Below, one piece after another: positions 7,491 to 59,000 of a stretch of 64,000 nt of DNA (positions within the stretch are counted from its first letter, which is position 1; every line of letters begins with the position of its first letter). Below the pieces are notes generated by a model that ran no database searches, was not told the origin of the DNA, and was given only the letters and a program-made list of their open reading frames with translations. The DNA comes from Onchidella celtica. Lineage: Eukaryota > Mollusca > Gastropoda > Systellommatophora > Onchidiidae. The position numbers were made by a program, and so were the translations under genes. Location of the stretch: positions 85,801,677-85,865,676 of the forward strand of contig OZ007567.1 in NCBI GenBank assembly GCA_963931925.1. The letters run 5' to 3'.

Positions 7491-8544
7491 CATCATCAGT
7501 TGCCCAGTCTGGAACAGACACTGGCGATCATGGCTCTCCACTCGGATCTGTCTTCAGCCAACTTCAAGAAGGAGTTGTTGTGACGTTTGTTTGTTGTCCA
7601 TGAATTAAGACTTTCAGTGAACGTTTTTCTCTGTCTACCCCTGCTTTTCCTGCCTTCGATCTTCCCTGTGACTGCTAGATGTTCGAGGCTCCTGAGGCGA
7701 CAGACGTGTCCTAAAAATTTCAGTTGCCTCTATCTTATTGTTTTAATTAATGGCCTTTTCAGATTAGAGTCTCTCAAGACGGCCTGATTTGATTTTTTTT
7801 CTCCATCCATGATATTCTCAATATTCTTCTAACAAACCACATCTCTGCTACTTCTAGTTTCCTCTCTATTTCTTTGTTCATTGTCCAACATTCACATCCG
7901 TATAAAAGCATTGACCACACATATGTTTTCAAGACTCTGATTTTGGTGGTCGCTGATATATTTCTGTTTATTAATATTGGTCTCATTTTTTGGAATGAAT
8001 CTTTGGCCATTATTATTCGTTTCCTTATTTCACTTATGCTCCTACCACCTGATGTTATCAAATGGCCTAGATATGTGAATTTTATAACTTGTTTGATTTG
8101 CTCTCCTTTGCTGACCAGATGACATTTCGGGTTGATTGTTTCTTTTGGAGACTACCATACATTCTGTCTTTTTCACGTTGAGAGACAGTCCCGTTTTTTT
8201 CACTTTCTATAACTACTGTGTCCAGAAGTCTCTGTTGTTGTTGTTCCGGTTCTGCCAATAAAACTGTGTCATCTGCATATCTAAGGTTGTTAAGATTTTC
8301 TCCATTTACTGGCCAAGGATGTCTTCTAAGTTCCTGAGGATCAACTCGCTGTATAGATTAAAAAGATTAGGTGACACCACACATCCATGTCTCACTCCTC
8401 TTTTAATTTGTTTTGAATTCACTATGTTCTCCTTCTATTCTTACGGTCGCGCTTTGATCTCAGTAAAGATTTCGGATAACCCTCAGGTCTTTGCTGTCGA
8501 TGTCTAGGTTTTCCAAAATGTTAAATAGTTCTTCACGCTTTACC
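7491..8544 (-). mobile_element. 5'-truncated non-LTR retrotransposon (LINE) inside the MITE
   Basis: The 1054-bp insertion is flanked by the 10-bp target duplication TGTAAGTACT at 7481-7490 and 8545-8554. On the minus strand it encodes reverse transcriptase remnants: a GVRHGCVVSP block, the catalytic LRYADDTVLLA motif at about 8290-8255, then the thumb and C-terminal region ending at a stop near 7497. Its 3' tail is TGATGATGAG. The RT is broken by in-frame stops and a one-base frameshift soon after YADD. The clade was not resolved; the short TGATGA-type tail would suit an RTE-like element. Confidence 0.88.
7497..8525 (-). pseudogene. LINE reverse transcriptase fragment (frameshifted, with stops)
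   Basis: Conserved RT segments can be followed across at least three frames, from 'NLDIDSKDLRVI' near 8500, through YADD, to a segment with 'LLYGCECWT' (about 7900) and a C-terminal 'GRQRKT' region. Two stops lie before YADD and a frameshift lies after it. No functional protein can be made. The fragment covers only the palm, thumb and tail of the RT, with no endonuclease domain. Confidence 0.85.
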
Positions 8545-21590: not shown

Positions 21591-21602
21591 ATTTTATGGC
21601 CG

Positions 21603-21997
21603 CGTTCTTTCTCACCGCTTTGGAGAGGTGCAAAACAACCGCCGTTCTTTCTCACCGCTTTGGAGAGGTGCAAAACAACCGCCGTTCTTTCTCACCGCTT
21701 TGGAGAGGTGCAAAACAACCGCCGTTCTTTCTCACCGCTTTGGAGAGGTGCAAAACAACGTCGTTGTTGGCCGCGTTCTTTCTCACCGCTTTGGAGAGGT
21801 GCAAAACAACCGCCGTTCTTTCTCACCGCTTTGGAGAGGTGCAAAACAACCGCCGTTCTTTCTCACCGCTTTGGAGAGGTGCAAAACAACGTCGTTGTTG
21901 GCCGCATTCTTTCTCGCCGCTTTGGAGAGGTGCAAAACAACCGCCGTTCTTTCTCACCGCCTTGGAGATGTGCAAAACAACCGCCGTTCTTTCTCCG
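21603..21997 (+). repeat. 40-bp satellite array with higher-order structure
   Basis: About ten units of 40 bases start at 21603, 21643, 21683, 21723, 21774, 21814, 21854, 21905, 21945 and 21985 (partial). Each contains CACCGCTTTGGAGAGGTG. Two units, those starting at 21723 and 21854, carry an 11-base extension rich in GTTG, so the array has 171-bp and 131-bp higher-order blocks. Units are almost identical apart from the last two. All three plus frames are open because the unit has no stop in any phase; this is not evidence for a gene. Confidence 0.95.
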
Positions 21998-27296: not shown

Positions 27297-30200
27297 GTTG
27301 TGCCTGAATTTGTTACTGTATCATTGCACTCAGTTGGTAATGGCGTCTGCCACGCACTCCCTGCTCGTCAACTGCTCTCTGTTTATTATATTATTGTTCA
27401 AAACAGTCTTGATACATCTTTTGCTGACCATATTTTCATGTTCATATACTTGTACTTAATTTCAGCGAAAATGTATGTCATGGTATTTTTTCTTTATGCC
27501 TGTACCATCTGCAGCCCATCTACCACAATAATAATTATACATCACATGTTTATAATAATTTTAATATACACCGTAATGGTCACCGTACGTCATGGCATGC
27601 ATACTGTTGTTCTTGTTGTTGTCAGTATGACGGTGAAATAAGGTATTGAAGTCGTTTTTGGCCATTACTAGACTCACATTAGCAGGCTTGCGTGGTTAAT
27701 TTGTAACTGACTGTTTCAATTGTTACTGTCTGCTTTCAAAGTCTTTAATACTCATTGTTTACAATTTTTTTGTGCTGCTAACACGAACATCCACATTTGT
27801 ATTCCCAACGCACAACCATTTTGCCAGACATATAGAAAATAGAACAAAATTACACAACACCAGATCAGTTTTCGCTGTTTTCTCTGTCTGGGTTAATTTG
27901 AATGCGAGTGACTTAAACTTAAAAGACAAGTCTCCACTATCCATATTTAATCCAACATCTTCAACATAAATTACAAAGTGTCGTAGCTTCGTACACGAAC
28001 AGACATGCCTGCGTCTTAGTGTTATCTTTGTAGAACCTTGGATTTTAAACCGGCTGTTTGATGTTTCTGTGTGCGCGCTCAGTAAAGATGACAACTTGTC
28101 ACCGAATGAGCCACGGCGCTGCAAATCTTTTTTAAAAAATGAGGCAATTCATGAACTTATTTTTATTCATTTTATACGCCAGGTCACGGCCTATTACAAT
28201 GAACTGTTCACGGAAAGCCGCAAGAATCCCAATGGATGTCCAATCACCATGTCGCTATATGTCAGTGACCAGTACACCCAATACAGTACAGTCTCCGAGT
28301 TTTACAAGGCAAGTGTTGCCATGACTCAGAAAATTATCAATGTCACGTGCGCCTGGAATAATCCACAATGATAAAGCTATTCTTAATTCCTTATTTTCGA
28401 TTCTGCTGGATTCTAAACGTTCTATTGACGACCAAAAACATTTTCAATCTCCTCGCACAGCAAGCAACTTGAACAAGTCATTTTCTAAGGCTTCAGATGC
28501 ATTTTTCTCTAATATTGGCAACTATTAGAAAGTTGATTCTGGTAACTTCCTGCGTCGATTAATGTACCCAGCGTATTTCAGGGGAGGGGGGCTTGAAATT
28601 GAATGTCAACTCAAACAATGTTTACTCTGAAGTTTTCTTTTCTCATTGGTAGGAAATGTGCTTATTTGCCTAAGCATTCTTTATTTTACATTATATGTTC
28701 TGTTTGTTGTTTTGTCAGAAAGGGATGGAGATAGGCGTCCACAGTGTCTCACATACAAGCATAGACACGCCGGAGAAACTGCAGCAAGAGGCCCAGCAAC
28801 AAAAGCAAAATATAGAAACTAAGGCTGGGGTAAGACTAAGAGCTTCGTTGGAAAGTAATTAATAACCTGAGTTTTCCTCGATATCCTTCACCCACAACTA
28901 AGAATTATCACTGGGATTTATACTTCAAATTTATTTTCGGCTTTTCTTGACCTCATGATAAAATGAATATCGTATGTACATGTATTTCAGTGTGCTAAAG
29001 ACGTCTTTGAATATCCTAATACTGTATGTAGAGGAAATGAATGGGTCAAATCATTTCATTATACTGAATGACATAGGATAATATTCTAACTTCCTACGTC
29101 TTGTTACACACTGTATTATTGACCTCTCTACGCCTGAAATGGCTGCAGAGTGTTTGCTGACACAGAGACGTTTTTGTTTTGTTGCCTTTTTTTTTTTCAC
29201 ATGTTTTGCGGTACGATCTCTCATTAACCACGAATTTCTTGTTGCATTCAGGTTCCTGCAGGTGACGTCGTGGGTTGGAGAAGTCCAAACTTGGTAACTG
29301 TGGGCGATGAGCAGCCTGAAATCCTCAGCCAACTTCAATATCAGTACGATATTTCACTCACCTACAGCAAAGACACCAACTACCTGTGGCCTTTCACACT
29401 TGATTATGGTTATCCATATCCCTGTAATTTGCCACCTTGTCCAGGCGTATCTACTCCTCACATAGGTTTCTGGGAAGTCATGGTCCACTCTTTGACTGAT
29501 TCCGCAACAGGACTCAACTGTGGTTATGTGGATGGGTGTCGACCACAAGGGGAAGATGCCGCTCTGGAATATCTGTGGTCAAACTTCCTCAATGCCTATG
29601 AAACTAACAGAGCACCATTTGGTTTGAACATGCACGCCGCCTGGTTCGCAGCACCTGAATATTTGAGCGCTATGGGACGATTCATAGACCAACTTCTGGA
29701 GCTCCCTGATGTCTATATAGTCAATGTTCGTCAAATGCTGGAATGGATGAAGGCTCCGGTCCCTCTCAGCCAAATCCAAACCTTCGCTCCCTGGGGCTGT
29801 GGATTAACAACCTCTTCTACCTCAACATCGACCACAACTACCACAACAACAACAACAACAACCACCACGCCACCACCTGCTGCGGCGGCCTCCTTACCAC
29901 AAATTGCTGTGAACAGCCAGCCAAGTGTTCGATTCACCTCTGACCCTGCAAGAGCGTCTATCGGAAATACAGCAGAGCCAGAAAGACACAGTTATGGAAA
30001 TCCTGGGGAAAATGTTATTAATCCGAGCAAGTCCAATTCGAGTCCGGTCCTCTCTTGGTATCACCAGTCGCAAGAATCAAATCCTTGGCAGTGGGCACAG
30101 GTAGGAAGAAACAGAGAAACACCCGAACAAGCACAACCGACAGCACAAACAGGAAGATCAGAATTCCTGCAACGCTTCTTGAAATTCCCCGCCGAGCATG

Positions 30201-31123
30201 CCATTAAAAACTCGAGTGCTTGTCTCCAGGGCGTCAATTGTAAGCAACCTAAATGTTTCTGCAGAACCACCAGTCCCCCTCTGGGCCTTGCTTCAAATGA
30301 AATACCACAGATTGTATATATTGCCCTCGACAGTAAGGTAGATGGCCATACCTTTGCTCCTCTTATACAGCTGTTTTCAGGAACCAGGAAAAATCCTAAT
30401 GGATGCCCCATATCTGCGACTTTGTTCATCCCGTCCACTGGCAACTACCCTCCTTATGTTGATGCTTTGAAAATGAAAGGTCTCAGAGTAGGAGTTCGAG
30501 CTGGGAAATATTCTGAACATTTGTATGGAGACAGTCTAAAAATAAGAGTGGACGACGAAATTTCCCATGCTCGCTATAAAACATCAAACTTCTATGGCTG
30601 GCGAGGATTCGCAAGTCTTGCACCAACTGATAAAGTATTTGAAGCATTGAGGTCCAACAATGTTGCATTTGACAGTTCTATTATAACAAGTTCTACTGAC
30701 AGGCCATGGCCTTATACTCTCGATTTCGGCTTATTAGACAAATGTGCTGTCATGCCTTCACACTGTCCCTCCGGAAAGTACCCTGGAATGTGGGAAGTGC
30801 CTGTGAAACCCCTGCGTGTCCCAGGACAGACCAGGGCCTGCACCTTTCCAGACACGTGCGCTGGGGTGGCGAACACAGAAGAACAAGTGTACCAACTACT
30901 GACCACAAATTTCTATAGGCATTACAACAATAACAGAGCACCATTTGGGATCAATCTTCATAGCAAATGGCTGATAGATGCAAGTGCCCGGGGAGAAATA
31001 AGAGGTTTCATCCTCTTTATTGACGATATACTTCACAAAAACGACGTCGTTGTTGCTTCAGTGGAGCAGATGATAGAATGGATGACCGCTCCAGATAAGA
31101 ATGCACAAAATTTCCCATGCTAG
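27090..31123 (+). CDS. Chitin-deacetylase-like secreted protein with two tandem deacetylase domains (4 exons)
   Basis: The exons 27090-27296, 28183-28308, 28719-28829 and 29252-31123 join in phase to give 771 residues. The start is the first ATG of the frame, in a good context (A at -3, G at +4). A signal peptide covers about residues 1-26. Domain 1 (about 28-320) begins with a Cys-rich C-x4-C...DCFC segment typical of invertebrate chitin-deacetylase-like proteins. It keeps FDDA (63-64), HSVSH (119-123), RSPN (158-161) and NMH (His 276), the general base, metal ligands and catalytic His of carbohydrate esterase family 4. A Ser/Thr tract (334-354) opens a linker. Domain 2 (about 471-771) has the same fold signature but LDSK replaces FDDA and RAGKY replaces HSVSH, so it probably cannot bind the metal. 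Expected role: extracellular deacetylation of chitin or a similar polymer. Confidence 0.88.
28183..28308 (+). CDS. Deacetylase exon 2
   Basis: 42 codons after acceptor CGCCAG, encoding the conserved RKNPNGCPIT block of the family. The donor is AAG|GCAAGT, a GC-type splice site with otherwise perfect U1 complementarity. Confidence 0.85.
28719..28829 (+). CDS. Deacetylase exon 3 (metal-binding HSVSH)
   Basis: 37 codons between acceptor TTGTCAG and donor GGG|GTAAGA. It carries the HSVSH metal-binding motif followed by a Gln/Lys-rich helix. It is too short and ATG-poor to stand out without splicing logic. Confidence 0.85.
29252..31123 (+). CDS. Deacetylase exon 4 (rest of domain 1, linker, domain 2)
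   Basis: 624 codons including the TAG stop, after acceptor CATTCAG. It begins with VPAGDVVGWRSPN, completes domain 1, encodes the Thr tract and linker, and contains the whole second domain without an intron. The ACA/ACC-rich stretch at about 29808-29873 encodes the Thr run. Confidence 0.92.
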   Translation, partial: VPAGDVVGWRSPNLVTVGDEQPEILSQLQYQYDISLTYSKDTNYLWPFTLDYGYPYPCNLPPCPGVSTPHIGFWEVMVHSLTDSATGLNCGYVDGCRPQGEDAALEYLWSNFLNAYETNRAPFGLNMHAAWFAAPEYLSAMGRFIDQLLELPDVYIVNVRQMLEWMKAPVPLSQIQTFAPWGCGLTTSSTSTSTTTTTTTTTTTTTPPPAAAASLPQIAVNSQPSVRFTSDPARASIGNTAEPERHSYGNPGENVINPSKSNSSPVLSWYHQSQESNPWQWAQVGRNRETPEQAQPTAQTGRSEFLQRFLKFPAEHAIKNSSACLQGVNCKQPKCFCRTTSPPLGLASNEIPQIVYIALDSKVDGHTFAPLIQLFSGTRKNPNGCPISATLFIPSTGNYPPYVDALKMKGLRVGVRAGKYSEHLYGDSLKIRVDDEISHARYKTSNFYGWRGFASLAPTDKVFEALRSNNVAFDSSIITSSTDRPWPYTLDFGLLDKCAVMPSHCPSGKYPGMWEVPVKPLRVPGQTRACTFPDTCAGVANTEEQVYQLLTTNFYRHYNNNRAPFGINLHSKWLIDASARGEIRGFILFIDDILHKNDVVVASVEQMIEWMTAPDKNAQNFPC

Positions 31124-41030: not shown

Positions 41031-44000
41031 CTAAAATTGGGAATAGAATAGTAATAATGTAAATATTGGCACACCAAAAAAATGAAAATAAGTTCTCGAA
41101 ACTTGTATTACCCAATAACTTCATGCATAAATCAGTATATTACCTTGATTCAGGACTTCAAATAACAGCAAGTGAGATGCAGCTGACCAGCAAAAGCGAA
41201 ATAATTTTTTTTGTTTTTTTGCACAATCTACACCAGTAACTGCTGTCCATTGTGCTTACAAATAAAAACTATGATATTTTTTGCAAAGCAGTGAATTGGC
41301 AAAACACTTCTCAGGAAATTCACAAAAGATCCGAGTTCACATTTAATACAAAACAGTAGTTTCATCAACCCTTCAATATGCCTTTTCAATGGTAATACAC
41401 CAATCTAAAATATACTATTTATTTATTTATTGATTGATTTATCTCATTACTTCAGTTTTGTCGTTGTCACTGTTAGATAACATTACTGCTTCACATCATA
41501 TCACATAAAGTACACAAAAATAAAATAAAATAACACTGGAGATATTTCTGAATCCTGATCAGAAGGATGAAACTCGAAAATGTATTCTCAAATTTCAGGT
41601 TGTTCATGCCAGGGTTAATGCCCTTGCACTCTATATGAACCAACATGGGCAATTACATAAAAACCACATATTATTATAGGCCACGGACAAACAATATTAG
41701 CCTTACCCGTGGATGATGTTCAATTTTGTAAGATGTTTGTTGAAAAAGACGAATTTCTCGTATGACATGAGCAATCTGTAAATAAGACAGTAAATATGGA
41801 ATGGATGAAAAGCCCCTCTGGCAAAAAAAACTCACAATAATAAAACTCTCTGTAAAAAAAGAAATAGAACTGTAAAATGTTAATAACAGCAAACACCATG
41901 AAATGTAATTTGCGGTGATGAAGGGCAAATTATAAATGTATAATTTAACCGTGTCACATAGCTGCAAATCTATTGCCGGGCAAGTCCATAATGTTCAAAA
42001 ATTCCTTTTTAAAAAAAGTGAAAATGAAATCACACTACATTCGTCTTATTTATCACCTCTATAAATACTGGAACATTTATGGAATTCTTTTTTTCACAAG
42101 GATTCTAAAGGTGTATTTCAGACTCAACAGTCTTGCAAGTTCTAATCGTATAAGTGCAAGGAAACAGTCAAAGTTCGTACTCCTGTCAAGTTGTGAACAA
42201 CTTTCACTTGTGAGTTGCGCATAAACAAACAGCCAAATCCATAGGTGTGTGGTCCCAGGTGATTCGGATGCAAAATATTGCGTGTCAACATGGAGTTTAT
42301 TAATTTATGTATACCTTGACTGCAGTGACTCCTTGAATTATGTGCTTAAGAGGATGGAAACATGAGGCTGTGGTAGAAAACACTCAGAAGGCAGGAAACG
42401 CATTTTCTGCCTTCCCTGAATTTTTCCATTAAAATGTGTGCCTACTGGATTGGTTTCTTTGTGTTATAGGGTTTATTTACTATTCCTTTGGCTGCTAGAG
42501 CAGTATCATTGTGAAATACTTCATTTCATGTGCTGTATGTGACATCAAACTGTGTCAATCCGCTGAAAAACAACATGCCTCTTTCCTTTTCACGAGGGGG
42601 GCTTCACAAGAGTGGAGATAAAAAGTATATAATTTGAGCTGGTTTCATCCCAAATTACTGTTACTGGGTGAAATAAAATAGTAAAAATTACGGAACCACT
42701 TGCATGAAATAAATTTGATCTTTTTTTAGCGTTACAGGTGAAAAACAACTTCGCACCATTTTGTTTACATTTGGTGCCGTCGCTTTGCTGAGTGGCGAGC
42801 CCCTTTTATGAGCAATAAACGCGCCACATATTACCAGACTTCAGCAGGAAACAAGCCTTTTGTAGATCGGTCCAAATGGTATCGTACGCATAATGGGCGT
42901 CCAAACCCAGGTAAAATAAATTTTTCGTGTTAAATTTGATTGTGTTGTGTGGATTTTTGGAATTTTTCATTCAAAAGGTGACCAATAGTTGCGGTGTTGC
43001 ACTGCTTTCATTGCTCGGCCTTCGCTTGGAAAACTTGGTCTAGATTAAAAAAAACCGCCTTACTCGAAGTAGTGGAGCAAATAATTTAGCATTTAATCTC
43101 GGTCGAATGACATGTTTGTGTACTAAGAATAAATTTTAATGTTATTTAAGCATAAATCAGACATGACGATCATCCTAAACTGTAGTTTATCGTGTCTTGA
43201 GGGAAAACAAAAACGCAAGATCATCGTTATTTTTGGCTTGTTTTGATTTACTGTTGACATCCGGTTCCATGTAGTTTTCATCATTATGTTATGGAGGTCA
43301 TATTTAAGTCAAAGCTGGTCTTTTAGAACAATATTTTTGGACCTTGTCTACTATATCAATGGGAGTACACGCTAATGTGTATATATGACTGATTATACCA
43401 ATGGTTTTACTTAGATCTAGAATAAAGAAAACTTACTCTGCTGTTGTGAGTGTCTGCTGTATTATTTTTTTGCGATTTTGGTCATGATTTAAGTTGCCTC
43501 ATTGCAGCAGTACCGGTAGTGTTTTATGTCAAGAATGCAGTTTATTTTTGGCATAATGTCATTTTCAGGTTATTCCTCCTCCAGTGGCCTATTCTTTGAC
43601 TTTTATGTGAAGTTTTCCACGTTAAAAGGTGGAGATTCAATGCTTTGGGGGACACTGCTGATATAAGCCTCATCTCAGCTTAGCATGGACTCACTATATA
43701 TGACAGGTTTTAGATGTTGTCCCTGGTGCAGTAAATACAAATAAAACGTAGCAGAGTACATCATTCTTACTTACCATTCTCATTTTTGAAAAGTTAACAA
43801 GGCCATCCTCTGTGATATTTGGAGTGCCTTCTTCGATGAATGAGAGATCAGTGAGGTACATCCCTAGATATGGAATGCATGGAGGGTCACACCTGAAAGT
43901 AAATTTCATGACATCAATATGAATGTGCTCATAACATGTTTCTCAGTATTTCCTCAGTATGTTATAAAGAGATATGTGAAAAGTCTGATCTGTCCATAAC

Positions 44001-47000
44001 TATTTTTCATCGATATATTCAGGGGAAAGCAAAATGTACCTCTGCATAATTAGATTACAAGAACACTTCAAAGAAAAGATCAGGAATAATATGTTCTGGA
44101 CCTTCCAAATGTGCAATATCAGAATTATTATAAATTACACAGATCTCATTTCAAATTGTTTTAGTAAAGAAAAACACATCCCCACCGGGTAACTAAATTA
44201 TATAGGTATATCTCATCATGATTAACACACCTAAGCCCCACAAGAAATTTAGGAATTTTCACTTTCATTTATCCATAACAACCAAGATAAAGGTATGCCA
44301 AAATTTGTTTGTTTGACAAATACCAAGTCTGTTTAAAAGACATAATTAAAACATTTTGGGCTCAATCCAATAATAAGCTGACCTTCTTAGCTGACTGATG
44401 CTTACCTATGTAAGGCATCCCTCATGTTTTTAAAACGGCCTTCAGATGACACCAGATTCTGAAGTCTCTCAATCATTTGTTTGGTCTGAAACAAATGGAA
44501 AGGCATATTATACAATGTAAATCAGCATTTATTACTTAGTCAACCCTAGATGTGACATTTTTCCACTTTATAAAGTCCATCATGTAAGTCCATCATGTAA
44601 GTCAAAACAAATGTTCATTACTCCACATTTACTTGTTTTACACCCAATTCCCCCCCCCCCCCCCCCCCCCCCCAAGAAAAGAAAAAAGTGCTATTTGACA
44701 ATAACTGATCAAATGATAAGAAATACTAATTGTACATTTTATGGGAAAAAAAAAAATCAATTTCAAAAATGAACATGATAGTACAAAGAAAGTACTGTAT
44801 GTGCAAAACTGATTTTTTGGTTCATAAAATTATAATTTTATACCAAAGCATAGCGCACATTAGGAAAAAAAAACAACTCCTAACTAAAATTCTAATTGCT
44901 TAAAAACAATGGATATTGTACAACCTGTTTGTTCACTGATATTCTTTCAGTTGCATACAGTTAATGAAAATGCAAGAAATCAACAAGACAAGGAAGATGT
45001 AATATAAAATTAGAGCAGGCAACTGTGGCAAAATCTATCAAATCTGAGGAATCATTAACTTGAGAATCAAATGACTGGGTACAGTTGAAATAAAATAACT
45101 AAAACAATATAATTTTTCCAGATATATTATCTTCATATTAAATGAATGAGTGCCTGCACTTTGAAACTGTAAAAGTCTTTCTCCACTCACCAACATCATG
45201 ACAATTTTTTTTTGACATAACAAATCTCACCTGTTTTGAAAGCTTCTCCCAGGTTTTCTTGAGCCTGTAGACTGAACTATTTACAAATGCTGCACAAATC
45301 TGCAGCACCCCATTGTAATTATGCATACAACGACAGATATCAGCTATCGCTGCCCACTTCTCTATGCATGCAACCCTGTCTTGCATGTTTGATCTGCTCA
45401 CAATTTCTGACACCACCAAACGGCTAACCTGAAAAAGTAACAACAAAAGTTAACTGAGGAGACACAGATCTAGTTATGAACTTTTTTTGTCAGGTATTAT
45501 TTTTGTTCAATAAAACTGACTGCTTACTCATTCATCACAAAGTTTGATGCCCTATTGACCTCCAACTCCTGACATACATTTTAAGACACTATTTACATCT
45601 TGTACTTCAAAATGAGAAACATATTCTACCAAAATATCCTCACTTAAAGGTGTGCAATGTCTGGTTTCCCATTCATGTTCACCCAGTCCCCCCGGCTTGT
45701 CACAGGTTGAAGTAACAGATGCAACCAAAACTGCATGGTAAGTATCTTTGGCAATTAACTCACTGATGCCCGTCATCGCACAGGTGCGATTTTCTCACTG
45801 CGACGGCAGCTGCCCGACAACGCATATGTGCGATTTTACTCTTAACAATGAATAGCTCATAAGGGTAATGTAATAGTGCAATGACTGTGGCACGGGTGAA
45901 TTCTAGAGTCATTTCCCTTTCACTGAGTACCCGGATGAGCTCTCTAGCGTGGAAACTAACGAAGTTATGATCGTTTTTGTACTGCTACCCCCCCCCCCCC
46001 TTGCTCAAAATCCTGCGGTCGTTCCGACTTCGAGTACAAAAGTACAAAAAATGTGTAGATCTAGCTCTACACGGCCTTCTAATGATGCAGTAGCCTCTCA
46101 GGGTAGTAAACCAGACAGTGTAACAGCTACATGTAGACCTAAACACCAGCCTGGGCCCTCTACAGCCCAAGATTTTAGTTCTTCTGACTCGGAAGATGAT
46201 TCACACATTCACAATTCAAATCTATGAAAGATAACTCAATTCCGTTTTGTTACATTATAAATCTTATTATAATATTTACATACATGTCAAATTGCAACAC
46301 TGTAGCTTAAATAGTTTTTTAAAAATACCCTTGAAACGCTGAGTACCAGGGAATAGCTAGGGTAAAAATCCCGGGCATCAGTGAGTTAAACTTACTGCTT
46401 TGTAAATACTTGTGATGCCTTTAATTGGAAATTAGTACGTTTCTGTTTACTCCAATGCCCTGCATAGTGAACAAAACTGCTAGTAACTTGTGTAATTTAT
46501 AAACCAGACATGATGAGACAACATAATAAAATTATCCCTTACTCGGGCATTATATAGAACCACCTGCGAGGTACCCTTTGATATGTGTGCCGCCATGGAC
46601 AGGTAATACACTCAACATAAATGCAATCAGCCCATCCCGCAATTTCCCTCTACAATAATTTTTAGGAAAAGATGGAATATTTCCAAGAATACTTGTGTAA
46701 TCTCCTTTCTATACTGACCTCATTGAACCTCTTGCTGACATACAATACATGCTGAGCTTTATGACATTTATCAGGTTTCATCCATGCCTGACTCAGCAAT
46801 TCCCTGTAGAGACATCCAGCATCACAATTACATGAATCAAACAGTGAAATGGTAGAACACCTATGCCCATTTTTGACATTTCATGTTTTTTTTATGTGTA
46901 TGTCTGACCACAGCATTTTAAGAAAATAATTCAACTGAATCTGTGAATCTGAAGCATATTATAGCATATGTTATGGGACATGGCTTGAGTGTTTCCCCCT

Positions 47001-50000
47001 GTAGTTGTTTCCCCTGTCTGAAAGTGTTGATATTGTGACTGTTGTGTGTTCGGGTTGATGACATATGTGTGTCTTCTGGAGGATGGCTGTTTGCCACTGA
47101 TGGGTTGCCTGTGCTGGGGAGCTGTGATGTTGATGTTGGACAATATTTGTAGCTGATTATGTATATGTTTGTCACCGGTAAGAATGTACATGCTCTCGTC
47201 CTTGTACTGGTCTGTATGTAATAAACAGAGAAGTAATCTGGTCTCTACTGAGTTTTTGAGTCCTGTGATTGATAGAGTGGGTGCACAAAACCAGCAACAC
47301 AACAGCATATAAAAAATTACCATGACAAAGATATGAATGGGCTAAAACCAAAAGAGCTTGCCCACAAAACAGGACAACTACATATAACATCGTCTTGATA
47401 ATTTTGAAAATTTTCCACTGCAGGCCGAGGAATTCTTGACAATACTTTTTCATTGTACAAGAATTCATAAATATTGTTTTTAGCAAAATCAACAATTTTC
47501 TCACAAATTCACATATTAATATACACATACATGTGTATGTTAATCCTTACAGCTTCTCTTATCAGCCTCTGACGAGTCTGCCCAAAATTATTACATTTAA
47601 AAAAAAAAAAAATCAAGATGACGACTTACTCGCTCCTTATTGCAATAAAGATTTGATGATCTAGATATGTCAACTGTTCAGCAATATCCAGTGCAGATAA
47701 GGTGTCCAAATTGTCTTTCGATGGTGACTGTGAAGAAGAAATGTGTATCAAAAGTTACATCACTGAAAGTAATTCTGGACTGGCTGAAAAATTTCCAATG
47801 CTGGATTTAAGATTTTGCATTTAACGGGGTGTGCTGCAGTGAAAACTACGATCTACATCCCACCTTTTCTCATACATTTTATGCCATGATACTGTGTAAC
47901 TAAATTGACAATAACAGCCCAAGGGTTGAATTTGGCTCAATTACTCCAACCATTGCCATGGTAACCGAGAAATATCATCTGTCATATTGGATTTTATACA
48001 AACTTTCAAACATACACATCCATACTTTCCTACTGTTCAAACATCATGAAATTCACAGTTACATTCTTAATTCCATCTGAAAAAGTTTGCCAAGACAATG
48101 TGAACAAAGCTATTTTTTATAAATTTTCAAAAATTTACATTGTCCAAGCAAAGAATTATGTGCAATTCTGGCAATAAAAAAAAAATTTAAACAAAAGAAA
48201 AAGGTAATAAACATTTAAAAAGCCCTGACAAAATCGCCAAAATTGAGTCAAGAATAACCATAGCAAGTTGCATTTCGAACTGTCATGAACATTTTGAGAA
48301 ACATATTTTGTGTGTGAATTATTTTGATCCATTGAGAAATCTGCCGTTTATGTCAGTCAGAATACAACATTATCTGCCTTGATGAATTGTTTACAAAATA
48401 GCAATGTTTAACAATCTACTGTTATTTCTTTGAACTGAATCTGATAAATAGGTAACTGATCAAGAAATACCACAAACACAAAATCACTATTTTTCACTGA
48501 AATCATGATGTTCACTGTTGTACATCCCCTTAACCTGGCTGAACTCACTGATCACGCTTAAACTGTCCAGCCAGCATCAACCAGTTTTGTATACAATTTG
48601 CTACGAAGAACATCATTGCAATGTATAGTAAATGACAGACATCACCAGTACTCTTCAGCTGCCCTCAAACCCTGCTTGAGTGCATAATGCCTGAGTTGCA
48701 AGCATGTTTTTGTGGATAGCCTAACAACATACAAGTTCCTATCTCTAAAGCCTTCTTAATGTATTCAGTGTAGCACACACTAGTAATGATACCAGCCACG
48801 TACCTCTGTGTGTGTAGTGTTGTATGACAGGTTGTAACAAACGGGAAGCCTATAGAAATTACTTGGAAGTGCATGTTAAGTGTTGACAGAGCTTATTTGT
48901 CTCTTGGTCCCATCAACAGTTTTGTTACACATTGAAAAATCAGCATTTCACATCCAGAAAAGCAAAAGCATATTTTCACATTACCAAGTGAACACATTCA
49001 TCTTTTATTTCATTCATTTCTCAATAAGTATGTCAAAATTCTTCATCACGGATGTGGCATGGGGGCTACAATTTCCATTTTAGTGAAGGCACTCGGCAGG
49101 GGCACCCAGAGGGCTGAAAGATGTAAACAAATCAGGATTGCCAAGGTAGCAAGTCATTAAAGCACCTCACAAATAGCCAGAATAGAAATGCAAAAGGGTT
49201 AAAGGAATTTATGCGAAATGAAAAACCTGCATTTCCAGACTGGTATCAAACAAAACAAGAGCCAACCATTTGGCACTGTCACATTCATCATAATGATTAT
49301 ATCAACATCACATTATCTGTATTTTGAACGTGTTGCTAAAGGCAGGCCAGTTCTACTTACTGTGGGAGGCATAAGTAACTGAGTGAGATCAACCCGTTTT
49401 TCTGGAGATGGTTCCTTGCTGATGGTGCGTAGTATGGATGCAGCAGCTTTGTGTTCTGCCGGAAGCAGATTGGTATTCACCACCATCTCCTCCAGCAGAT
49501 CCACTACTTGAGCTTTGAGATCAGGGTCAGATTCAAAGTCCTGTTATTGGATTGCAGGCATATGTAAAAAAAAATTAATCCATCAAGCGTAAATTCATAA
49601 GTTCATGGTTTAGACATAATTTCATAAAATAAATAAGACTGGTCATGTACCCCAAGCAAATTCAACTTGAGTTCAAACTGTTCATTTCTTTATTTCCAAC
49701 AGCAATTCCTTTGTACCCAAATAAACAGATTTCAAGAAACGTTATTATGGGGTCCTGATGTACCTTTGGATATAATGATAAAGAAAAAATAATTTTCATC
49801 CAACATAACTGATTCAATAGGGCACACTGGAATATCAAAAGGACTGAAGAAAGAGTTAATGGTTTTGACAGATTTATTTTTAAAGAGCGAAGCTGAAACC
49901 CCTGACACATGAAACAAAATTACTTACATAAGGCAGGCCAAAAAGGAGTCTGTATGTCTAACAATTGGTCTCCACAGTACCCAATCCCATAAAAAACCTT

Positions 50001-53000: not shown

Positions 53001-56000
53001 ATCCTATTAAAAACCCTGGCTTTATAGATATCACGAGTATTTGAAATATCTCTGGCCGGGTGTAATTACATGCAACATTACAGTAAAATTTAGCTTAACT
53101 GATAAAAGGTTTTCATTTCAGACTGATCTTGTTCTTTCCATTTTTTGGTCCATCTATGATATTTTATGATCTACTTCTCAAACTTCTTTAGACCATAAGT
53201 TACTTCACTTGAATCAAAAGTTGGCCAATTTTAAATGACTCTAATGCATAATCTTAGACCAGTTCTTCATAACTAGTACTGTGATCCAAATTCACCCAAG
53301 CAAATATAAATCTATGAATAAATAAAGGTAGTGTAAAAGAGATTTTGAAAAACAATAAATATGATCATTGAACAATATAATATGAAAGTTGAAAGCCAGT
53401 TACCTCATAATTACTAAAAATCCAGTTTTTCAAGATTTTAATTACTCTCAGCGTATGAGGAGAACCAATGAAAACAGAGGTGTTTGTCTGACCTGCACAG
53501 GACACAAAGATACAAATGTACAACATTAAGCAAAAGCTGTCAGGTGAAGGGGTCAATCTGGCATTGAAGGATGCAGTGCAGAACAATGAGAACAGTCATT
53601 TCTCAAGTGCACTTGGATAAATTGTTGGCAAAGAGTGATGCATCTGGAGCACAGAGCTGTCATTCAATTGATATTAATACATATCTGGAACATTCCACCC
53701 GAGAAATATATAAGTGGCCTTTCAATAAAAAGTAGGAAAAACCCAAAAAAGGAAACTACTCATATGCATAATTGTTGTATAAGCCAGATGCTGTGAAAAA
53801 GATCAATTTACACTAGAACAAAGATATTGGAAATATCCAGTATAAGGTGATGCCTCAAAAATAGACCAAATCTAGTCTTAATATTAGTTTTATATCTGTC
53901 GGCGGTAAACTTATATATATTTGAATATGATTATGTACACTGGCATCTTAAGAACATCCAAAAAGTAAATATTTCTTCTTGGTCACAACTTGCCAAACAC
54001 TCTACTTTGACAGAGAAAATGTCCACAAGTGTAGATTTGTGTTTCTTGATTATTTAATGATGCAATATTAGCAGGCATGAATTGTGGAAAATCTGGAAGT
54101 GCAAACTGATGCACAAAACCCATACACAACACCACTCTTCAGGGAATAATATGCTTTCTTCTCTAAAAAAAAAAGAATTAAAACTTTGCAATTTCAGCTA
54201 TGTACTTTTCAACAAAGACTGCTGTCATGAACATCAAGTATTTTCTAAAATTTCAAGTGGATAAACATACACAACATACCTCACATTATTACCAGCATGT
54301 TATCTATCTCTAGGTATTAAATATATGATAAATAAATATTATCAAAATCAGAGATATTAAGCTTTCTTTTATATTTTCATCCAAATTCCCTGTTTTGCTT
54401 AATATTCTTAAATGTGCAAATAACATTTAAATGTAATGTTGTTCATGATATATGGATACTTTAATGAAGTAAATCAAATATGAGCAAAAACTGCAGTGTG
54501 TGGTTGAGTTTACTTACTGTCTGAAATGAATTCATGTTACCATTAATTCCAAAGATAAAAAACTCAAGATATGTATATAATGAATTCAAGACAAAAACAA
54601 CAGTGTTAATATCTGGTATGAGAATCTGCTATTGTACATGCAGTTAATGGCCATAAATATGTCACTGCAAAATAAGTTCACTTCACATGTCCAGCAGAAC
54701 CACTGAGAGGGAGAATTCATTTCCCAACTGATGGTAAGACCACACGTTAAATATCCTGCTGGCTAAGGAATATTCCTGAATCCAGTGGTGTCTTTCCAAT
54801 GTTCGAGTAACTGATTTTATGTCATTGTTGCTTCATCTTTCAATTTGTACTTATCGAATAAGTAACTTGTAAATGTTCAGTGTGCTCATGCAGGCAAAAC
54901 ATGAGGTATTCCATTTGGTCAATTTTAGTAAGCAGATATCATATATCAAAGACAGCCAAGAAACAGGACAGATTCTAAGGAAACCCATTAAATACAGGCA
55001 AGAAAATCTCCCACATAAAACACTGAAGAAAGTATCTACAAAGAATTGCCAGCCTATTCAAATTAAAATCCCCCTTTCCTATATTTGCAATTCCTCTCAA
55101 ATGCAAGATAGGCAATGATCCAGAGTGTGGGAAAAGCTGACAGCAAATCAGATGACGTTCCATCTACTGACAATGCTACAGGAAACGAGCAGGACAGACA
55201 GCACATCTATTACCAAAGGTGCCAACAGGAAGAATTATTGAGAGGACAAAAATACCAACACAATAATTGCCACTTTAAATTCACCACCACAGCAAAAGTC
55301 TACATGTGTATAAGACATTCTAGATGCGCTACACATTCCAACAGTCACTATTTGGATACAGGATGGATTGAACACAGCGCTGTCCCACTTTTCTGGGCTT
55401 ACCTGTTGGTGCTTGGACACCCAATGTTTGAGGACATTAAGAACACGCATGGTGGCAGCTGTACTGATCACAGACTCACGTTTTTTCATGACAGGACGTG
55501 CATCTAATGTACCTGTTTTTCCCAACAATATTGGGATTGGGGACATGGTTTTTGTGTAGATGATAAGACTTCACCAATTCTTGGAAAGATACATTGATGG
55601 GATATGGAAAACCAAAATCTAAGTTTGGTGGCAGAAAATGATCGTTTTGCTCATCACTGAGATTCAATAAATTCCGGATAATGAAAGTACAGTTCCAAGT
55701 TAGTGCAAAAACCGGTTTCTTGTCTCTTGGCAGCAGGACCAGACACAAATTTGACTACTACTGAGTGGACAGTAAAGGATGACAAAGTCATGAGATATAG
55801 TATGACCTATCTAGGTAACATAAGCTGTTCTCTGGTGACACATTCTCAGGACTTTTTTTTTACTGTAATCAGCCGAAGTCAGATGCGCTATCATTGAGAC
55901 AAAATACATCCTCATTTTCTCAACCACAGTTCATACAGTTTTATATGACAGCAAGCCTCAGAATAACCCATAACAAATTTCCAAAAAAACGACACCTCAT

Positions 56001-59000
56001 AATGACATCTAGAACTAGCCCATTATATCACAAATCTGGATTTATGTATAAGATCAACAAAAGTAAAAGTAAAAATGTTAGTTTATGTTTCCAAATGAAA
56101 AAAAAGATGATACACGGGTTTAGAGAAAAAACCTAGGTATGCAGTTACCCATCAGCCTGTTTGAGAATTTGGAAGATTTTTTTGTTGATAAATTATTGAA
56201 AGGTGCAACTGAATGGTCAACTATACGAAAAAAGTACTACATTTATTTCTCTGTACAGATTAACCCTTGAGACATTAACTAATGCAGCTTATGTTTCAAA
56301 ATTCTAGGAAAGAGAAAAGATTTCTCCATTTTCTTCAAATGACAGAAAATGCCTCTCCATTTTATTTTTCATGTAAGGATGATGGAAAAGGTAAAAAACC
56401 TGATTTTGTATAAAATATCATTAGTCTACTGCAGGAACATGGTTAAAACTGAACCCAAAGGCTGTTTGTTGTTAGAGGAGCCTAATGTTTTACATACAAA
56501 ACTATGGCTGAGCACTAAGGGTGGCCAAATCAACGAACCGGCTGATTCGCGAATCCGAACATTTTGTGACCCCGATTCGACGAACACGAATTTTGAATCG
56601 CTGTCAATATTATAACCAATGAAATGCAGAGAAATATTTAGTGCTTCCCACAATAGTAAGAGGCCAATTCGGGCTCAGTTCGACCCAATTCGTTTCTCTT
56701 AGCATTGATTTGAATTTGTGAATCTGACCTTGACCTGTACTGCAGTGTTGGAGGCGAACTGTCAAGTCGTAACATGAAAAAGTAGGTCAACATTACAATA
56801 GTCATCAAGGGCAGAGCAGCGGAGTCATACCATCATTAGGTACTCCCCCCTTGATTAACATTAATTATGCTCAGAAATTTAGCCACTCCATGTTATAGCT
56901 GACTGTTATAGAGTAGTCAGGGTGTGTAATGTTTGACCTTGGCCCGCTAGCTCTAGTTAAAACGTAAACACCTTGGCACCGTCACAACAGCGCCCATTAC
57001 TATTCATAACCAATCACACAAAGGAAGAGTGTCATATGACTATGTTTGCAGGGAAATTTGACTTGATTCAGGTTCAATTCGAACACCCCTCGTGACCTCG
57101 AATCAGACACTGTGCATGAGAAAATAACTTAGTAGGCCTACTGTATTTCATCAGCATTTTTGTCAGTTTGCGTGAGATATACCAAACTATTTATTTAAAA
57201 TTTTCTAGAGACAGTATCTTTTTGGTGTGCATTTGTTATTAATAATATTTAAAAGGGATTTATTATGGTAAACTATTTCTTATACATCATTTTCTCCTTC
57301 CAGCCTAATTCATCTGATTCGTGTTGAAATTCGGCTGTGATGTGTGATTCGTCGAATTCGAATTGAGCTTCCCGAATTCATCGAATTTCGAATTCCGAAT
57401 CAAATCAGCCCACCCTTAATGAACACAACCCAGTATAATTATTTCTATTAATTTGGCTTTGTCATTTGGTTCCCTAACAACAACCTTTGATTTTAGTTTC
57501 ACCAGGTTCCAACAGCTGACCAACCCATGATATCAGTTTTTCACCTTTTGATGTGTTCATGAGATGCTGTAGAAATGATTTATTACAAAGAATGTTGGAA
57601 TTAAATTCTTTCTGGAACACTTTTTATTATCTTCTATGTGAGGTAAGGAAATCTGAAGACTTTCTCCTATGTACAGTGACGATGGAAGAAAATAAAAACC
57701 CACCATCATGAGCACTATCTTGCTTCAACACTCATGACTGCATCTACATTAGAAGTCATGCCATTTCAGGTGATTTCCCCGTACTGTCAACAATTTTGCA
57801 TGCATGGATTTTCAGAGCTATCAGTGGATGCTCACTATTTCTGTAATAATTCTTGGGAATTATACTCTGGTCTCAAATAATTGTTAAACTATGATCAGCA
57901 GAGCTGGATTCCAGCTGATTTTCAGTAAGTAATGAGAATTTAGGATTTCCCACTAGAACAGCTCCTCTCTCATCTGGAGATCCATGTGCCTACTAGATTA
58001 GATTTTGTGATAAATGAAACTTTTTGCTCTTTTCTCAAACATTCTCTCAGTCATATCAAACTGACATAAATACAAACTATCAGCATTTCTCAACAGAATA
58101 TCTTACCCGTTCCAACACTGAGGTAGCGAGCTATTCCTTTCTGCTGTTGGTCAGCACAACTCGCCAATCCTGCTGTGGCAGCAGCAAATGCTGTTGTGGC
58201 TGCAGATGAACTTGACCTAAACATTGTAGAATTGTTCATCATAGATAAGATCCACAGACTTACATGCAGTGTATCACACATACATATTTCATGAAAAAAA
58301 ACAGATGTCATTCATACACTGATGTGAGTATGATGTAAAATAAATCCTATCTCTAACATGGCTCCTCTCACGCATATAGCAAATTTCAGCATTAATGTTT
58401 TGAGCTCAAGAAGCAATGTGCCGAAAGGATGTAGAAAATTCCCAACTTAAATATATACTGATTTTGTGATTTCAGATTGACTTCCAATCTATCCTTTGGC
58501 CAAAAGATAAAAACATGGTCATCAGTGGTTTTAATCAAAAAGAAAATAACACTAAATAAAAGTCTGTGCCACAATACTATCATTTTTTCTGTATCTGTGT
58601 ATTACAATTATACCTTGAAATGTCAAAATATAAATATCTAAGACAAATGCCTGAGGTATTACATTCTAATACTTCGTAATATTTCATCCTCTAGCTCTGT
58701 ACCACTAACCTTCTCTTTGATGCCCTTGATGATGTGACCACTGTGCCTGCCTTTGCCCTAGTGGGTGGAGAACCATCCATTTGAGCAAAGCTACTGCGAG
58801 GGGTAGAAACCATGCTTATGCTTTCAGCCTCTGCGCTGCCTCTTTTGCCTGAGACTATGGATAGACAAAGAAAAAAAATTACAATCATGAAACTATCTTC
58901 ATGCAGGAATTTTAAATACAGAACATACGACATAAAAGGCTGCAGAGGAATTTATCTTCTGACGACATTCCATTCTCTTCTTTGTACAAATCGATGGAAG

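Follow-up and report, generated by a model that had tools for sequence, protein, structure and literature searches.

A putative mutually exclusive pair of REM-helix exons in a RasGRF gene of Onchidella celtica

The question raised by this locus is whether a RasGRF gene carries two interchangeable exons for one and the same helix of its REM domain, as an earlier note on this DNA had proposed. The window, that is, the whole stretch of 64,000 nucleotides analysed, corresponds to C1:85801677-85865676 in a genome of 1.14 Gb and 43 contigs, and the exon pair, herein called 4a and 4b, lies on its minus strand inside a large gene. In a Pfam profile scan, DH, the start of REM and CDC25 were found one after another on one strand (all minus). 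Three DH pieces (PF00621, cut-off 27.6 bits) stand in profile order upstream of REM and CDC25, at C1:85909211-85909345 (20.3 bits, under the cut-off), C1:85906919-85907116 (40.9 bits, the only DH piece over it) and C1:85902675-85902791 (24.3 bits, under it), followed by the start of REM at C1:85870148-85870336 (57.1 bits). The CDC25 (RasGEF, PF00617) matches, given here as the limits of the profile match and not of exons, lie at 45210-45431 of the window (C1:85846886-85847107; 77.6 bits) and at 43778-43906 (C1:85845454-85845582; 41.2 bits). When the two CDC25 pieces were joined, with the intervening part omitted, and compared with solved structures, the closest was 2ije (1.7e-44; entry title 'Guanine nucleotide-releasing protein'), which we take to be RasGRF1, ahead of SOS1 (5.9e-16) and RasGRP1 (1.6e-06). 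Because of the DH-REM-CDC25 order on a single strand and of 2ije as the best CDC25 match, the gene is identified, as judged from its sequence, as RasGRF. According to the accessible part of one review (PMC12475976), the RasGRF/GRP family is vertebrate-specific.

All exons concerned are on the minus strand. Exon 2 in the window numbering (58710-58854, bounds set by eye) belongs to the linker that precedes the second part of REM and is in frame with exon 3 (58107-58216, 110 nt), of which the last base is the first base of a Gly codon. This codon is completed by exon 4a (55403-55512, 110 nt), carrying the canonical REM helix, as well as by exon 4b (53404-53492, 89 nt), carrying the alternative helix, and both end at a codon boundary. 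The downstream exon 5 (49361-49540) starts with GAC at 49540 and reads DFESDPDL onwards. The two exons have identical phases, GT-AG sites and open frames, and the coordinates, phases, splice sites and helix letters are the same as in the earlier note, as is the presence of a MKKRES segment in 4a and its absence from 4b. Counting the first Gly, common with exon 3, 4a gives 37 residues and 4b 30, so that the two predicted proteins differ in 36 or 29 residues, respectively, one REM helix included. The length difference of 21 nt is a multiple of three and falls within the 60 nt that a human screen permitted inside a pair, as stated in the part of that report consulted (PMC5740500). That the two exons encode versions of one REM helix found support in the RasGEF_N profile (cut-off 28.3 bits), which both match up to profile position 104 at scores below the cut-off, 4b weakly: together with the start of exon 5, 4a scored 26.5 bits (E 7.9e-6, profile positions 68-104) and 4b 16.4 bits (E 0.011, positions 74-104), and with exons 2, 3 and 5 the E values were 2.4e-5 (4a) and 0.034 (4b).

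The claim that skipping both exons or including both breaks the frame held in each of the spliced translations. Exons 2-3-4a-5 and 2-3-4b-5 are open in one frame from end to end. Joining exon 3 straight to exon 5 gives SVGTGL and then a stop, while 3-4a-4b-5 runs through 14 frameshifted residues of 4b and stops at the 15th codon; the two exons together measure 199 nt, which is no multiple of three. The reading frame, as it stands in the genomic sequence, is thus predicted to permit one exon of the two per full-length protein. As in mutually exclusive pairs, the exons are adjacent and similar, share a phase, are open and have splice sites, and their joint inclusion or joint skipping is unproductive.

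As a measure of the similarity of 4a and 4b, we used the ungapped BLOSUM62 score of the last 15 residues, anchored at the donor, which was 38 for the pair, with five of the 15 residues identical. For comparison, a set of 3,284 pseudo-exons (1,766 minus and 1,518 plus; 4a, 4b and other real exons counted in) was collected from 141 kb of both strands as open AG...GT intervals of 50-200 nt in the same phase, and their scores against 4a had a mean of -14 and an SD of about 8. Leaving 4a itself aside, 4b was the best match to 4a in the whole set, and after it the top scores were 22 on the plus and 18 on the minus strand. Among 1,000 dinucleotide shuffles of the 55402-49541 region none reached 38 (maximum 31, mean 9.9). 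A third copy of the exon was not found, the next open site in 55402-49541 scoring 12 and the best one in intron 3 scoring 2. An origin of 4b from a repeat was also considered and ruled out, because a 141-base stretch containing 4b matches the genome only once.

Whole-genome protein searches with 4b plus exon 5 and with 4a plus exon 5 revealed no second RasGRF copy: the former query gave two matches, both within the RasGRF gene, and the latter three, two of them in the RasGRF gene and one in a gene on contig C3 (E 0.007). The sensitivity of these searches was too low for the 4a peptide to detect 4b or for the 4b peptide to detect 4a, and neither exon was among the matches of a genome scan with RasGEF_N. 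Scanning with a CDC25-exon peptide gave five stretches fitting the pattern in viral_contigs and 63 in genome_contigs, none of them confirmed, both collections being without animal relatives.

The earlier note had proposed a dN/dS test on 4b, and selection was tested herein inside one genome, by comparing the codons of 4a with those of 4b. The ungapped match runs over 23 codons, with a score of 46 that drops to 43 at 26 codons. Within this stretch, the two exons had the same base at the first codon position in 8/23 codons, at the second in 20/23 and at the third in 8/23 (Fisher p 4e-5), and the pattern was the same over 15 codons (6, 13 and 5; p 0.002) and over 26 codons (8, 20 and 9; p 3e-4). 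Since 4b had been chosen for its protein likeness, a control for ascertainment was needed, for which we took the highest value reached at comparable sites. Of 3,610 open 45-mers before GT on the minus strand (4a excluded, 4b included), only 4b had 12 or more second-position identities out of 15 (13, against a mean of 4.2). By the Nei-Gojobori method, pS between 4a and 4b over 23 codons was 0.74, indicating saturation, and pN was 0.41, a ratio that serves as a rough guide given the small numbers in 23 codons. Seven residues are identical, and five of these are encoded by different codons, the other two being Lys (AAA in both) and Trp, which has a single codon. Both the codon-position identities and the relation of pS to pN therefore point to an old duplication of the exon with the protein kept under selective constraint, which is the simplest reading of these sequence data, and to this rough extent, over 23 codons, purifying selection on 4b can be argued for within one genome.

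The splice sites of the two exons are of opposed strengths. With the use of a donor matrix, 4a was found to have a strong donor (12.3) and an acceptor tract poor in pyrimidines (31%), whereas 4b has a weaker donor (7.6) and a pyrimidine-rich tract (75%). Ranked among all 498 GTs of 58106-49541, the 4b donor falls above the 95th percentile and below the 99th. Both exons are of the GT-AG type, no splice-site incompatibility between them was seen, and the search for intron pairing gave nothing convincing, the longest exact complementary stretches being 12-13 bases (with no control set). For these reasons exclusion would rest on the frame and on trans-acting factors. Steric exclusion is unlikely because the two exons are 1.9 kb apart. 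Exclusion by the frame together with a regulated choice is, from the sequence, most likely, and the coupling of a frame shift to nonsense-mediated decay is one scheme described for human exclusive pairs in the part of the atlas consulted (PMC5740500).

In order to place the swapped helix on a known structure, 4a and 4b were compared with SOS. The best solved-structure match of 4a was SOS2 (E 0.05). For 4b, two viral cyclins (E 0.51 and 0.79) came ahead of SOS2 (0.87), none of them significant; the alignment of 4b with SOS2 is ungapped and keeps the helix register found for 4a. The distance from SOS is greater for 4b than for 4a, the scores against SOS1 being 28 and 50, respectively. In the alignment of 4a, residue 18 of the query is paired with SOS1 residue 684 (full-length chain 3ksy_A), and the Met-Arg of 4a therefore falls at 687-688. 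The helix encoded by 4a or 4b is then, by alignment, SOS1 helix 688-702, with L687 just before it. Partial texts of the sources concerned report that the SOS1 double substitution L687E/R688A abolishes the feedback loop (PMC12475976, PMC5658395) and that R694 and W729 of SOS1 touch the distal Ras (PMC9023742). The SOS1 counterpart of the exchanged helix would accordingly in sequence terms include L687, R688 and R694, residues of the distal allosteric Ras site. The proposal that the two forms differ at the face supporting the catalytic domain is thus a part of the picture, to which the correspondence with the allosteric-site helix has to be added.

At the equivalents of SOS1 687, 688 and 694, 4a has Met-Arg and Lys, and 4b has Leu-Arg and Lys. 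Exchanges between 4a and 4b (in SOS1 numbers) were found at 690 (L/I), 691 (N/K), 692 (V/I), 695 (H/N), 697 (V/I), 698 (S/F), 699 (K/S), 700 (H/N), 701 (Q/Y) and 702 (Q/E). Position 701 is aromatic in 4b, in SOS and in a gene on C2, and Gln in 4a. In the SOS-like gene on C3, the REM helix reads RVVNVFRHWVDSHFYDFE within a single open frame, and the C2 gene, presumably RapGEF-like, has WVNNHFNDFE at the equivalent helix. The equivalent of SOS1 W729 is a Pro in exon 5, as counted by hand from DFE. The catalytic domain of RasGRF is reported, in sources consulted in part, to be without allosteric feedback sites (PMC4775219) and to be active by itself (PMC8623491). Because of the reported lack of feedback sites and of the Pro at the place of W729, a full SOS-like allosteric site is not expected in this RasGRF. 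A changed docking surface on REM is possible as judged from the exchanged residues. That the swap alters a docking surface at the equivalent of the SOS allosteric site, in such a way that one RasGRF form senses a small GTPase or another partner and the other does not, is a tentative and rather unlikely suggestion; the sensing form would then most likely be that with 4b, having Leu-Arg at the equivalents of SOS1 L687 and R688 and an additional Lys at position 691 (Asn in SOS1), and splicing would switch feedback on or off within one GEF.

Several other explanations of 4b have to be weighed against a pair of coding alternatives. One is that 4b serves mainly as a poison exon, which upon joining to 4a introduces a stop and lowers the level of RasGRF, as does the suppressed cryptic exon of mouse Rasgrf1. 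The stop inside 4b in the joined form agrees with this, as do the accessible parts of two publications on mouse Rasgrf1, according to which the loss of NOVA opens the transcript to nonsense-mediated decay (PMC3552424) and NOVA blocks inclusion of the poison exon (PMC8652244). Seven splicing-factor motifs were tried around the exons, the results being taken as leads only, and the count of YCAY within 200 nt upstream of 4a was seven, the regional maximum (mean 3.24). This count is not distinctive, however, because TGTGT downstream of 4a (three) and ACTAAY upstream of it (one) are also at regional maxima. Moreover, the selection is seen on the frame that is read directly after exon 3, and a pure poison exon needs none, so that we consider a poison exon improbable. 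A dead or dying duplicate with its splicing lost would fit the weaker donor of 4b, the greater divergence of its helix from SOS and its weak profile match. It is nevertheless highly improbable: at a synonymous divergence that has reached saturation, such a relic would not be expected to have its open frame, phase and both splice sites still intact and the second position unchanged in 20 of 23 codons.

Alternatively, 4b could be a first exon transcribed from a promoter in the 4a-4b intron, giving a short form with part of REM and with CDC25; an in-frame ATG does start 34 bases upstream of 4b, at 53526 (53493-53526, minus strand). We regard this as scarcely probable, since a pyrimidine-rich acceptor lies exactly where the frame and the phase of exon 3 demand it. 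Transcription beginning in this intron would give the product from 53526 a short hydrophobic leader, and the pyrimidine tract also accounts for the hydrophobic residues of that leader. Finally, the peptide compared is short, with five identities in 15, and 4b by itself gives weak or non-significant matches to profiles and in the structure library, as would be the case for an intronic open frame resembling 4a by chance. With 4b far ahead of all pseudo-exons and above every one of the 1,000 shuffles, chance is hardly credible.

We consider it quite probable, from sequence evidence of these several kinds, that 4b is a real coding exon, an old tandem duplicate of the REM-helix exon and the mutually exclusive partner of 4a enforced by the frame; the presence of a second REM exon in this RasGRF gene is supported by the sequence as real, and its being functional as probable. 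In a productive mRNA, exon 3 would be followed by either 4a or 4b and this one by exon 5, and transcripts with both or neither would shift frame, stop early and presumably be cleared by nonsense-mediated decay. The two resulting protein forms would have all other exons in common. The helix pattern predicted to be buried (R, V/L/I, L, K, W, V/I) would be retained, and the other residues and the preceding segment would be swapped. The likely effect would be to alter the hold of REM on the CDC25 domain, or docking on REM, and thereby to tune Ras exchange by cell type. If expressed, the pair would provide two natural RasGRF forms with one REM helix different, a ready test of the role of REM in an exchange factor for Ras that is believed to work without allosteric input, and a further case of tuning at the protein level through exon choice, in a Ras activator.

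The window contains some other features. Intron 3, between exons 3 and 4a, carries at 56510-57425 (minus) an element of about 0.9 kb with inverted ends, AAGGGTGG...CCACCCTT, of which at least 64 matching pieces (the one in the window included) and at least 12 other near-full-length copies of 78-88% identity are present in the genome, with 40 of 91 candidates scored; from the look of its ends and flanks we assume that it may be a MITE of hAT type. At 29228-31123 (plus) there is an open frame of 631 aa, whose two halves, connected by a Thr-rich linker, seem similar on visual inspection; to us it resembles chitin (polysaccharide) deacetylase-like proteins; no Pfam family was detected in it, and NCBIfam gave one meaningless match (E 0.21). 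A tandem array of 40 bp in 9.3 copies occupies 21597-21995 (plus), where rows with periods of 91, 131 and 171 overlap it; each of the three forward frames is open across the array, for 168, 226 and 252 aa. The open frame at 7774-8151 (minus) looks like a fragment of a reverse transcriptase of LINE type.

A mutually exclusive pair of REM exons in RasGRF was unfamiliar to the author of the earlier note, and no description of one was found in the openly accessible literature, which leaves most subscription papers outside; RASGRF is absent from the main text of the human atlas of exclusive exons as far as consulted (PMC5740500). The pairs of that atlas, in the part consulted, are likewise neighbouring similar exons in the same frame, their joint inclusion leads to a frame shift and a stop, and the swap modulates rather than deletes a structural element (PMC5740500), as is predicted here. 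The atlas demanded splice-junction reads (PMC5740500), whereas the RasGRF pair is predicted from genomic DNA. Within the same family, the cryptic exon of mouse Rasgrf1 suppressed by NOVA is also a frame-breaking alternative exon, but its transcript is described in the accessible texts as lost via nonsense-mediated decay (PMC3552424, PMC8652244), whereas 4b keeps the frame of the REM helix. By alignment the swapped helix corresponds to that REM helix of SOS to which the distal Ras site (L687, R688, R694) belongs; the RasGRF catalytic domain is described in partly accessible sources as lacking allosteric feedback sites (PMC4775219) and as self-sufficient (PMC8623491). The arrangement is thus of a known type, and its instance in RasGRF appears to be new.
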